From an uncultured Synechococcus sp. (lineage in GTDB: Bacteria; Cyanobacteriota; Cyanobacteriia; PCC-6307; Cyanobiaceae), in contig CAJXSQ010000007.1 of assembly GCA_913061215.1 (NCBI GenBank), forward strand, positions 1-33,489: a stretch of 33,489 bases of DNA, read 5' to 3'. The position numbers were made by a program, and so were the translations under genes. Below the pieces are notes generated by a model. It made no database searches. It worked only from the letters and a program-made list of their open reading frames with translations, and was not told the DNA's origin. This document shows, piece by piece, positions 29,483 to 32,777 of the stretch (the stretch's first letter is position 1; each line of letters opens with the position of its first letter).

Positions 29483-29505
29483 AAAAAACAGTCAGCCCCG
29501 CGGGC
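29483..29505 (-). terminator. possible terminator at the end of the metallopeptidase gene
   Basis: On the minus strand GCCC-GCG-GGGC (29495-29505) reaches the stop codon and is followed within ten bases by six T (29483-29488). The stem is only 4 bp, so this is a weak candidate for separating the metallopeptidase from the PyrF-PyrE operon. Confidence 0.3.
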
Positions 29506-30595
29506 AGTCGCGCGCCATGAGCACGCCGGCCTGCCCCTTGCCGTCGCGGTCGATCGGCTGGGGGTCGAAGTCGTCGTCGCTCACATCAAAGCTGCCGCTG
29601 GAGCAATACAGGCTCAGGGTGCGTTCGGTGTAGGCCCCCTCGGCCCGTCCCTTGCCCTGCTGGGCGGCCATGCCGATGCACTGCTGCTGGCTGCCCCAGA
29701 TGCAGCTGGCGGCGCCGAGCAGTCCGCCCACCAGATTGGTGGCGATCTGCTGGTCGCGTTCAATCTCGAAGCGGCGCACCGCGTAGCGCCGGCGCCCGAG
29801 CAGTTTGTCCTTCTGGGTCTGTCGCAGAGGCCGGCTGAAGGTCTCCTGGGTGTCCACCATCCACGGGCCGAGGCTCTGTCCCGGCGTCAGCTGGCTGGCG
29901 ATCCCGCGGGTGAGGGCCTGAAAGCGATCCTTGGGATAGCCGTGATGCTGGGCGGCCAGTCGCTCGTAGTCGCCCATCTCGAACAGCAGATTCGCCGTCT
30001 GGGTGAAGTCGTCCACGCCGATCGCGCCCTGGCTGAGCATCCAGCCCAGAAACACCCCGGTACGCCAGTCGGCGGCGAGCTCCTCCTGCTTCACCGTGAG
30101 GTTGAAGTTGCTGCGGTAGGGCCCGCGGCCCTGCTCGCGGTTCACGTGGTGACCCCATTCGTGGGCCAGCACCGCCAGGTCCAGCAGCAGCAGATCCTGA
30201 TCGCTCTTGCCGCGGGCACTGCGCACACTCCGGCGCAGATTCAGGGCCATCGCCAGCTCCTTGCTGGAGGGGCAGTAGTAGGCCATCGGGTGTTCAACCC
30301 GCTTCACCCCGCAGCCCTCGGCCTTATCGCCGGCGAAGAGCAGCCTGGGCTGCTCGCGGCTGTTCCAGAAGCGGTTGAGCAGCTTGTGGGCATGGCGCAG
30401 ATAGCGCTCACGCTGCCCTTGGCCCGAGCCGGTCTGTCTGAGCGCCTCCAGTTGCCTGGCCTCCGCTGCGCTGGGAAGCTGCAGCTCTGGCGGTGGGCCC
30501 TGGCCCGGAGCCCAGGGCTCTGCCCAGCCTGAGGGACACAGGAGCAGCCCGGCCAGGAGCACAACGGGCAGGCGCCGGAGCGAACGATGGGGCAT
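29492..30595 (-). CDS. neutral zinc metallopeptidase, secreted
   Basis: 367-aa exported peptidase-like protein. The N terminus RRLPVVLLAGLLLCPSGWAEP is a signal peptide with a likely cut after GWA. The zinc motif is VLAHEWGHHVNREQG, followed by an acidic ligand region QEELAADWRTGVFLGWM, which together match the YpfJ-type putative neutral zinc metallopeptidase family (HExxH plus EE.ADCWAG-like). Substrates are unknown. It lies 27 bases after the rhomboid gene on the same strand, so two envelope proteases are co-transcribed. The gap to the PyrF-PyrE fusion is 82 bases. Confidence 0.9.
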   Translation of the reverse strand: MPHRSLRRLPVVLLAGLLLCPSGWAEPWAPGQGPPPELQLPSAAEARQLEALRQTGSGQGQRERYLRHAHKLLNRFWNSREQPRLLFAGDKAEGCGVKRVEHPMAYYCPSSKELAMALNLRRSVRSARGKSDQDLLLLDLAVLAHEWGHHVNREQGRGPYRSNFNLTVKQEELAADWRTGVFLGWMLSQGAIGVDDFTQTANLLFEMGDYERLAAQHHGYPKDRFQALTRGIASQLTPGQSLGPWMVDTQETFSRPLRQTQKDKLLGRRRYAVRRFEIERDQQIATNLVGGLLGAASCIWGSQQQCIGMAAQQGKGRAEGAYTERTLSLYCSSGSFDVSDDDFDPQPIDRDGKGQAGVLMARDCPRG

Positions 30596-30622: not shown

Positions 30623-31207
30623 CTACTGCGACCGCCGCTGTCGCTGCAGGGCCCAGGCCGCCAGCACCCCGCCGGCAAAACCACTGGCGTGGCCGATCCA
30701 GCTCACCCCCGCCGGGGAGAACAGGGGGATCAGGCTGGGCAACACGCCGCCGTAGGCCACCAGACACACCAGCGACAGCAGCAGCGACAGGGGGCGCTTC
30801 TCCAGCCAGCCGATCAGCAGCAGGTAGCCCAGCAGCCCATACACCACCCCGGAGAGGCCGTGGCTGGCGGTGGGCCAGAACAGCCACACCGGGATCGCCG
30901 TGGCATACACCCCGAGCCACACCGCCAGGTAGTCGCGCCGGCTTTTGGTGAGCACCAGCCAGGAGAGCGGCAGAAACAGCAGGCTGTTGGCCAGCAGATG
31001 GCTGAAGCCGCTGTGGCTGAAGGGAGCGGTGAGCACCCCGATGAAGGGGCCGCGCGGTGTCATCGGCAGATTCCAGCTGCCGCGGAAGAACAGCTGATCG
31101 ATCAGCTCCTGCCCCCAGGGGATCAGCAGAATCAGCGCTGGGATCAGCAGGTTCGTACCCAGTCGCGCCAGGTTGCGATCCAGGCGCTGGCCAAGGCTCT
31201 CCTTCAT
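30623..31207 (-). CDS. rhomboid family intramembrane serine protease
   Basis: 194-aa protein with about six spans. The catalytic serine is in HGLSGVVYGLLGYL (GxSG) and the histidine in WIGHASGFAGGVLAAW; HSGFSHLLANSLLFLPL supplies the conserved His-Asn region. Both catalytic residues are present, so it should be active. The first span follows a basic start, MKESLGQRLDRNLARLGTN. Its ATG overlaps the stop of the upstream 198-aa gene by four bases (ATGA), and a metallopeptidase follows, pointing to an envelope proteolysis unit. Confidence 0.92.
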   Translation of the reverse strand: MKESLGQRLDRNLARLGTNLLIPALILLIPWGQELIDQLFFRGSWNLPMTPRGPFIGVLTAPFSHSGFSHLLANSLLFLPLSWLVLTKSRRDYLAVWLGVYATAIPVWLFWPTASHGLSGVVYGLLGYLLLIGWLEKRPLSLLLSLVCLVAYGGVLPSLIPLFSPAGVSWIGHASGFAGGVLAAWALQRQRRSQ

Positions 31208-31800
31208 CGCTGCGGACTCAGGCGGAAGGCCAGAACGGCGAGGGCCTCATCGGGGAGTCCGAGAAAGCGATCCAACCAGGCTTCGCCACAGGGTTGCACC
31301 AGGGCGGCACCCACCATCAGCCCGGCTTGATCACCCTGCTGCGGGCGACCCTCGCAGCGATGCCGCCGGCTCTCCAGGCTCCCGGTGCTGAGCGTGGTGT
31401 TCACGATCAGATCCGGGGCGCGGTAGCGCACGGCTCCGCCAGCGCGCAGTTCAAAGCGGAACCGCGCCTCAAACTGCAGCTCCACCCTGCCGCTGGCAGG
31501 TTCGATCACGCCCTCCAGCCGCTCGGGTTCGATGCTGATGCTCAGCCCCGGTGGCAGGGGCAGGCCGAGAAAGCGGGTGGTGCGGCTGCAGAGGGCGGGG
31601 ATGCTGGTCTGCGTGGCTGGGAAGCTGAGCGCAACGGCGCTGCCGGCCGCGGGCACGGCTGTGGCATGGGCCACACCGCCGGCGGCGTTGTAGCGGAAGC
31701 GCGGGTAGCGGCCGATCACCAGGGCGCAGCCCGGCAGGGTGGTGAGCCGCCAGCGGTCAGCTTCAGCCACCGCGCAGATCCCGCAAGGCTCCGCGGCCAT
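31204..31800 (-). CDS. conserved protein of unknown function, 198 aa
   Basis: Begins MAAEPCGICAVAEADRWRLTTLPG, with a CxxC near the start that may not be translated if a GTG at 31770 is the true start. The body is beta-rich: YPRFRYNAAGGVAHATAVPAAGSAVALSFPATQTSIPALCSRTTRFLGLPLPPGLSISIEPERLEGVIEPASGRVELQFEARFRFEL. I recognise no family; there is no signal peptide or membrane span. It overlaps the upstream PCC-glutaredoxin gene by 38 bases (or 8 with the later start) and the rhomboid gene by 4, so it is embedded in that operon. A cytosolic partner of these proteins is possible but unproven. Confidence 0.75.
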   Translation of the reverse strand: MAAEPCGICAVAEADRWRLTTLPGCALVIGRYPRFRYNAAGGVAHATAVPAAGSAVALSFPATQTSIPALCSRTTRFLGLPLPPGLSISIEPERLEGVIEPASGRVELQFEARFRFELRAGGAVRYRAPDLIVNTTLSTGSLESRRHRCEGRPQQGDQAGLMVGAALVQPCGEAWLDRFLGLPDEALAVLAFRLSPQR

Positions 31801-32341
31801 GCAGATCAGCCAGCTCGCTGTAGCCGCCGATCAGTTGGCCATCGATGTGAACCTGCGGCAAGGGACCCGGAGCAGGCTCGATCAGCGCGAAGGGAATGCC
31901 CAGCCCCCGCAACAGACGTTCAGCCCGCCGCGACCACGGGCAGTGTTCGGCGACCGCCAGCTGCACCCGCACCGGCGGCGCCGCGGCGTTGGTTGCCGGC
32001 ACCGGTACCGGCTCCGGCTCGAGGAAGCCCACCAGCAGATCGGCCCCCTTGAGCACATGGCTGCCGTGCTCGAGGTGTCCGCCCCACACCTGGCAGCTTC
32101 CATCGGAAAAGCTCAGATGCAGGTGCACCCCCTGGGGGGTGAGGGTGCCCTGCAGCGTGATGATCTCCAGGTCGCCCTGCAGCACCGTGGGGCCTTGCCG
32201 TCCCGGGCAGGCGAAGCTGGCCTGGCTCATGTTGCCCACCACGCTGAGCACGAAGCCCACGCTGTTCTCGCGCTGCGCAATCGCTTCGAGGCTGCGGCGC
32301 AGATCAGCCCCGGGCTCGAGGTGGAAGGGCTTGGCCCGCAT
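31763..32341 (-). CDS. PCC (DUF296) domain fused to a glutaredoxin-like domain
   Basis: 192-aa protein with two parts. Residues 1-110 match the PCC/DUF296 domain found in plant AT-hook proteins and bacterial small proteins: LEPGADLRRSLEAIAQRENSVGFVLSVVGNMSQASFA, and GSCQVWGGHLEHGSHVLKGADLLVGFLEPEP with the GGHL metal/substrate motif at 87-90. After a Pro/Ala linker (about 111-130), VRVQLAVAEHCPWSRRAERLLRGLGIPFALIEP...LPQVHIDGQLIGGYSELADL is glutaredoxin, with a monothiol-like CPWS site at 134-137 and the GG glutathione contact. The fusion is unusual; I have no function for it. ATG 32341 follows the 52-aa gene's stop by six bases. Confidence 0.87.
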   Translation of the reverse strand: MRAKPFHLEPGADLRRSLEAIAQRENSVGFVLSVVGNMSQASFACPGRQGPTVLQGDLEIITLQGTLTPQGVHLHLSFSDGSCQVWGGHLEHGSHVLKGADLLVGFLEPEPVPVPATNAAAPPVRVQLAVAEHCPWSRRAERLLRGLGIPFALIEPAPGPLPQVHIDGQLIGGYSELADLHGRGALRDLRGG

Positions 32342-32347
32342 GCGTGG

Positions 32348-32506
32348 TCAGCGCTTCAGCAGCTCAGAGGGTACCCACTGGGCGAGGCGTTGTTCGTGAC
32401 GCACCAGCTGGTAGCGGTTGAAGTCGCTGGGTTGATGGTTGTAGCGGCCCTTCAGCTCATGCAGCTGCTGCCGCATGGCCAGAAGGACAGGGTTGTTCTC
32501 GTTCAA
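32348..32506 (-). CDS. small hypothetical protein, about 52 aa
   Basis: From the TTG at 32506 the frame reads (L/M)NENNPVLLAMRQQLHELKGRYNHQPSDFNRYQLVRHEQRLAQWVPSELLKR. Small proteins with a similar NNPVLxAMRQQL...RHEQRL helix pattern are what I would expect as conserved picocyanobacterial hypotheticals, but I cannot search. An ATG at 32476 gives 42 aa. It lies six bases before the PCC-glutaredoxin gene and 28 bases after the next small frame, so it looks like part of the same operon. Amphipathic helices, no membrane span, no metal motif. Confidence 0.6.
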   Translation of the reverse strand: MNENNPVLLAMRQQLHELKGRYNHQPSDFNRYQLVRHEQRLAQWVPSELLKR

Positions 32507-32534
32507 TCGCGATGGCCGGATCCTTGAGAAAAGA

Positions 32535-32777
32535 TTAAGTGTCTGGTGGTCGCTGCGGGCCGTGGGCCGCCTCCCTGGTGCCAGAGCTTCTGAACTCTTC
32601 ACATCGATGGCCGCGGGGTGGCGGCAGCTCCAGGGCAACCACTTCAACGCTGCAGGCCGGGAACAGTTCCCGGGCCGCCAGGTAGGCCTGGGCGTGGCTC
32701 TGGGCGTGCATCTCCATCCGGGTGACACCACCGCCGCCGGTGTGCACCAGCAGTTGACACAGAAACGCCACGCTCAC
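32535..32777 (-). CDS. small hypothetical protein, 80 aa
   Basis: GTG at 32777: MSVAFLCQLLVHTGGGGVTRMEMHAQSHAQAYLAARELFPACSVEVVALELPPPRGHRCEE. The first 50 residues look like a folded alpha/beta unit (AQSHAQAYLAARELFPACSVEVVAL), while the tail REAAHGPQRPPDT looks non-functional. No family is recognised. It may be the first gene of the minus-strand operon ending at the metallopeptidase. The call rests on frame quality and position. Confidence 0.5.
   Translation of the reverse strand: MSVAFLCQLLVHTGGGGVTRMEMHAQSHAQAYLAARELFPACSVEVVALELPPPRGHRCEEFRSSGTREAAHGPQRPPDT

Follow-up and report, generated by a model that had tools for sequence, protein, structure and literature searches.

A cyanobacterial PCC-glutaredoxin fusion with fusion-specific cysteines and a recurrent gene neighbor: a possible thiol switch

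Fusions of a PCC domain (PPC/DUF296) to a glutaredoxin (Grx) are known as a domain architecture. Alves et al. 2009 (PMC2679010), in the portion considered here, list DUF296-GRX among the bacteria-specific glutaredoxin architectures and suggest a role in gene regulation. Prokaryotic PPC proteins form homotrimers and PCC domains act as trimeric protein-interaction modules (PMC4209074), while monothiol class I glutaredoxins with a CPYS active site exchange glutathione via one cysteine and can both oxidize and reduce roGFP2 (PMC8161271, PMC7138851). Our literature search found no functional study of DUF296-GRX proteins and nothing direct on bacterial PPC function or on natural Grx-sensor fusions. 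For the PCC described here, its Grx-linked cysteines provide a concrete, mutable hypothesis of what it does. A sequence-only reading of the locus had proposed an undescribed redox-controlled proteolysis or signaling unit; the fusion architecture itself was already on record in the part of PMC2679010 cited above. New, by our sequence comparisons, are a cysteine pair specific to fused PCC domains (C45/C83) and the recurrent pairing of the fusion with a neighboring gene, p198.

The window, i.e. the whole 33,489-nucleotide stretch analyzed, belongs to a cyanobacterial draft genome (84% complete, 1.9 Mb), and all counts given below for "the family" refer to its own cyanobacterial family (Cyanobiaceae). 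Five closely packed genes run along the minus strand from 32506 to 29492, followed by pyrF-pyrE, and all previously assigned coordinates hold. The first gene (32348..32506, minus strand) encodes a conserved 52-aa protein, starts with TTG and ends 6 bases before the fusion gene. It is a real gene, as relatives keep it at the same place with TTG, GTG or ATG starts, and among the inspected loci it was seen in the window's genus only. The PCC-Grx fusion gene (31763..32341, minus strand) encodes 192 aa and has full-length relatives with 34% to 72% identity. The p198 gene (31204..31770, minus strand) likewise proved real; its start is probably the GTG at 31770, which overlaps the PCC-Grx stop and yields 188 aa, instead of the ATG at 31800 that yields 198 aa. 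A rhomboid-family protease (30623..31207, minus strand) overlaps p198 by 4 bases, meets the cut-off of the general rhomboid family PF01694 (E=4.6e-17) and retains GLSG and the GHA histidine, as had been claimed. Its nearest NCBIfam model is rhombosortase (TIGR03902), where it stays below the equivalog cut-off (36.8 bits vs 84). The last gene (29492..30595, minus strand) encodes a predicted secreted zinc peptidase that carries the HEWGHH motif and shows weak family matches under the cut-offs for YpfJ-type zinc metallopeptidases (NF050010: 31.5 vs 250; PF04228: 16.1 vs 23.2).

Comparison of 12 loci of the window's genus revealed a conserved non-coding element, CTTAATCTTTTCTCAAGG (32522..32539, minus strand), just 5' of the 52-aa start. 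It comprises an AG(G) element and a CTTAA box that 12 of 12 relatives share unchanged. We read it as a putative -10-like box and ribosome-binding site. A sigma-70 consensus scan found no promoter and likewise missed this element. Gene overlaps and close spacing, together with the conserved promoter-like element, fit a single operon in the window's genus, where co-transcription of the cluster appears plausible. Further upstream, an 80-aa frame (32535-32777, minus strand) resembles loci L016 and L018 over its first ca. 55 codons only; its end may differ or be frame-shifted in the window.

The domain assignment of the fusion protein, a PCC domain with GGHL (H89) joined to a monothiol-like CPWS glutaredoxin (C134), was confirmed by Pfam, alignment and structural modeling. 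The PCC domain (residues 6-101; 32039..32326, minus strand) matches PF03479 with E=5.5e-19 and 69.1 bits (cut-off 25), and 63 of 63 aligned sequences match as well. For the Grx domain (residues 125-190; 31772..31969, minus strand) the score of 21.6 bits lies just below the PF00462 cut-off of 22.9, a shortfall due to the ca. 13 residues missing from the window's clade. The Pfam Grx domain was found in 58 aligned members at E<=0.01 (60 are fused), the best relative reaching E=6.6e-16. An AF2 monomer model had a pLDDT of 93.9, and a Foldseek search matched its PCC part to 2nmu (E=1.6e-12, rmsd 1.1 A) and 2hx0 (rmsd 1.1), with further PCC fold matches to 2p6y, 2dt4 and 2h6l. Many glutaredoxins were matched as well, as befits the thioredoxin fold of the Grx part. 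Metal-containing AF0104 (2h6l) and acetolactate decarboxylases are among the structures matched. Three histidines, His73 and His75 of an HLH motif and His89 of GGHL (32075..32125, minus strand), form a candidate metal site; they are invariant in fused and unfused PCC domains alike, as is E59.

These data bear on the possibility of a redox-responsive transcription regulator, in which the PCC domain would act on DNA or together with transcription factors while the Grx sets its state. In its favor, 'putative DNA-binding protein' is the name under which PCC chains were deposited, PPC domains of plants function within transcription complexes (PMC4209074), and gene regulation is the role proposed in the cited portion of Alves et al. 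2009 (PMC2679010). However, a DNA-binding segment (helix-turn-helix, AT-hook or other) was not found in the protein, Pfam matches are to PCC and Grx or GST-type families only, and the invariant histidines and the acetolactate decarboxylase fold match fit other roles too. We consider a regulator distinctly unlikely.

Our alignment comprised 60 fused sequences from across the family, including genomes of 1.5-1.8 Mb. The catalytic cysteine C134 (codon 31940..31942, minus strand), the cis-proline P162 and the GG motif G172-G173 are kept in all 60. Active sites are CPWS (33), CPFS (10), CPYS (8), CPWC (5) and CAWS (4), so that the second active-site cysteine is missing in 55 fusions, making them monothiol; CGFS, the class II monothiol motif, occurs in none of the 60. 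An Fe-S binding Grx held in a PCC scaffold and serving as an iron or cluster sensor might be considered here, given that some monothiol glutaredoxins bind [2Fe-2S], that a few CPYC glutaredoxins do so despite their proline (PMC8161271) and that the four CAWS relatives have no proline. Yet a proline, which usually hampers cluster binding, follows the catalytic cysteine in 56 of 60 fusions and makes a cluster improbable, if still conceivable; plant GRXS12, whose WCSYS site lacks a second cysteine, bound no cluster (PMC8161271, PMC7138851). Overall, we regard such a sensor as very unlikely.

The window's clade is further set apart by 27-29 residues (28 in the window) between C134 and the cis-proline, compared with 41 elsewhere. 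The window model has no helix at 147-162, whereas other fusions, judged by length, possess it. In ScGrx7 the region there adds to the glutathione-scaffold site (PMC7138851). Mapping this region by position onto the missing helix suggests that the Grx of the window's clade may be partner-specialized or of low activity; helix loss may weaken its general glutathione activity.

In addition to C134, two cysteines of the PCC domain are conserved in the fusions. C45 (codon 32207..32209, minus strand) is present in 60 of 60 fusions and C83 (codon 32093..32095, minus strand) in 59 of 60, whereas neither is found in any of 33 unfused PCC domains. Unfused PCCs of other cyanobacteria (n=30) carry F, L, Y or W at column 45 and G at column 83, while the three unfused paralogues of the family carry F or L and G, respectively. 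The extra cysteines thus go with the Grx. C45 and C83 sit in different turns. The sole fusion lacking C83, L090 (G086), has a divergent PCC domain in which C45 abuts an insertion, making its assignment unsure; this protein still adjoins p198 and could represent a separate fusion event. Since the fused proteins probably go back to a single origin, cysteine conservation in 59 sequences does not amount to 59 independent events and instead reflects one long-kept association.

A PCC-Grx query matched 266 of 300 sampled family genomes in 34 of 40 genera. As some matches cover the PCC domain only (those listed are mostly full length), at most 266 of these genomes carry the fusion itself. Outside the family, PCC proteins of a cyanobacterial class sample lie mostly in frames fitting unfused proteins. 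In another cyanobacterial family, a GlmU-like protein carries a PCC domain C-terminally (NTP transferase, hexapeptide repeats and PCC in a 625-648 aa frame; L121:40-1983, L129:43-1917, also L106, L112 and L120). Hexapeptide acyltransferases are usually trimers, so this fusion would fit a trimeric PCC. A viral origin was rejected: no fusion was present in phage records, which gave two PCC-only Salmonella matches, or in IMG/VR contigs. The phage records include AGRM01000002.1, a 691-kb Salmonella enterica houtenae contig. One locus, L009 (CALPNT020000053.1), is titled a Bifidobacterium breve MAG and has a cyanobacterial PCC-Grx and p198, indicating a mislabeled or contaminated bin.

Starting from the observed domains, the conserved cysteines with their confinement to fused PCCs and the repeated occurrence of p198 nearby, we tentatively favor a reading of the locus as encoding a soluble thiol-switch protein in which the Grx acts in cis on thiols of the PCC domain, with p198 as the likely partner. 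As in other prokaryotic PCC proteins, the PCC domain would probably form trimers and bind metal, and the monothiol class-I-type Grx would serve as a tethered modifier on it. The oxidation state of glutathione, or another thiol signal, would be written on C134, which could then pass glutathione in cis to C45/C83 or take it off. As output, the conformation or contacts of the PCC domain would change with redox state, and p198, with its own conserved cysteine, would take part as partner or client. Absence of the second active-site cysteine in 55 of 60 fusions identifies the glutaredoxin type handling protein-glutathione mixed disulfides and counts in favor of the switch. Against it count the helix missing from the Grx of the window's clade, the probable single origin of the fusions and the lack of p198 in many genomes that carry the fusion. 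A bolder version, which we consider unlikely, would make the protein a natural counterpart of Grx-roGFP: the Grx would bring the two PCC cysteines into equilibrium with the glutathione pool and in this way control p198, the Grx of the window's clade having become cis-specialized through partial loss of its glutathione site.

Genomic neighborhoods were surveyed for 67 fused loci (window included) and 3 PCC-only loci. The p198 gene adjoins PCC-Grx in 40 of the 67, in three orientations and across 17 genus codes: downstream in tandem in the window's genus and others, upstream in tandem in L049, L050, L075 and L090, and divergent in L043, L044, L052, L053, L057, L058, L069, L070 and L073. The arrangement label requires at least 15-16 changes on the PCC-Grx tree, a quick tree with several open forks, and this number counts losses of adjacency. 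The pairing thus survived rearrangement. By profile search, 144 of 300 family genomes contain p198; in the cyanobacterial class sample, no match fell outside the family. Some genomes carry p198 far away from PCC-Grx, and in several genera the fusion occurs but p198 does not, making p198 a favored, not an obligatory, companion. Its model (pLDDT 94.8) is all-beta. None of 34 members matched a Pfam family beyond chance, the window protein had no NCBIfam match, and a PDB fold search returned nothing under E=0.001 (best 0.035, an antibiotic sequester), with weak fold likeness to OmpA/PagP/YceI barrels. Of 54 members, 53 have Cys25 and 48 have a second cysteine near the C terminus, which the window protein lacks. 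We infer that p198 is most likely a partner or client of PCC-Grx.

The same observations could be explained if PCC-Grx served a single client, perhaps p198, as its dedicated deglutathionylase or thiol carrier, in which case the PCC trimer would be a docking scaffold and C45/C83 would be structural or metal-binding. The role of PCC domains as trimers and protein-interaction modules (PMC4209074) fits such a carrier, as do p198 adjacency in three orientations and Cys25 of p198. It leaves the confinement of C45/C83 to fused PCCs unexplained, however, and many fusions occur without p198, so that we consider it rather unlikely.

Compared with p198, the two proteases are found much less broadly. A rhomboid gene directly follows the fusion, with or without p198 between them, in 12 of 67 loci, namely those of the window's genus plus L064 and L065 from two others. 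In 6 further loci a rhomboid is found within 6 kb, in some of them separated by a gene on the opposite strand. For the zinc peptidase, adjacency was seen in 12 of 67 loci (the window's genus and L074), and rhomboid and/or zinc peptidase neighbors span four genera altogether. Related rhomboids a few kb from PCC-Grx in several other genera probably reflect an old gene order. In small-genome lineages the context differs, with pgsA-like, GNAT-like and SDR-like genes by visual inspection. In the suggested search for the fusion's neighbors in relatives, p198 is thus the most constant neighbor, and the rhomboid/zinc peptidase linkage is clade-specific.

A redox-controlled proteolysis unit of PCC-Grx, rhomboid and zinc peptidase can point to the tight same-strand cluster with its conserved upstream promoter-like element in the window's genus, to two additional genera in which the rhomboid comes directly after the fusion and to some others with a rhomboid within 6 kb. 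Against it, both proteases are missing beside the fusion in most genomes that have it: the PCC-Grx query matches 266 of 300 genomes, while rhomboid plus zinc peptidase next to the fusion are limited to a few relatives besides the window's own genus. Several of the loci in which a rhomboid lies nearby also have an opposite-strand gene in between. We judge such a unit highly improbable; the proteases accompany the fusion through local gene order and are no core components. "Redox-sensing" and "operon", as used in the sequence-only reading, had been read into the locus and not observed. Its redox part has been strengthened by three cysteines conserved throughout, two of them specific to fused PCCs, while its proteolysis part finds no support as a general feature because the fusion occurs widely without the proteases. 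More broadly, this case illustrates that proteases clustered in a single genome may owe their proximity to local gene order and need not form a functional unit.

Should the bolder, Grx-roGFP-like version hold, it would provide small unicellular cyanobacteria with a built-in glutathione-potential switch. The host family is one for which reading the photosynthetic redox state matters. The p198 pairing offers the first function lead for an orphan family without a Pfam entry.

Compared with known systems, PCC-Grx has the same domain architecture and order as DUF296-GRX of PMC2679010. In the portion of that work considered here, the Grx is classed as CPYC, whereas 55 of 60 fusions in our alignment are without the second cysteine, and that portion makes no mention of the C45/C83 pair, the family distribution, the p198 neighbor or the helix loss. 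Prokaryotic PCC/PPC proteins (2nmu, 2hx0, 2p6y, 2dt4, 2h6l) share the fold but have no Grx in the matched chains. The HLH/GGH histidines are common to PCC-Grx, unfused cyanobacterial PCCs and the 2p6y and 2hx0 alignments, while unfused cyanobacterial PCCs, unlike PCC-Grx, have no cysteine at positions 45 and 83. Yeast Grx7 (CPYS) and plant GRXS12 (WCSYS) resemble PCC-Grx in their single catalytic cysteine, cis-proline and GG motif; PCC-Grx differs in being fused to a PCC domain and, in the window's clade, in having no helix before the cis-proline. Finally, the engineered Grx1-roGFP2 and rxYFP-Grx sensors, in which a tethered Grx acts on partner cysteines, would resemble PCC-Grx solely in how they work: in contrast to them, PCC-Grx, for which we propose such a relay, is a natural protein with an unrelated fusion partner.
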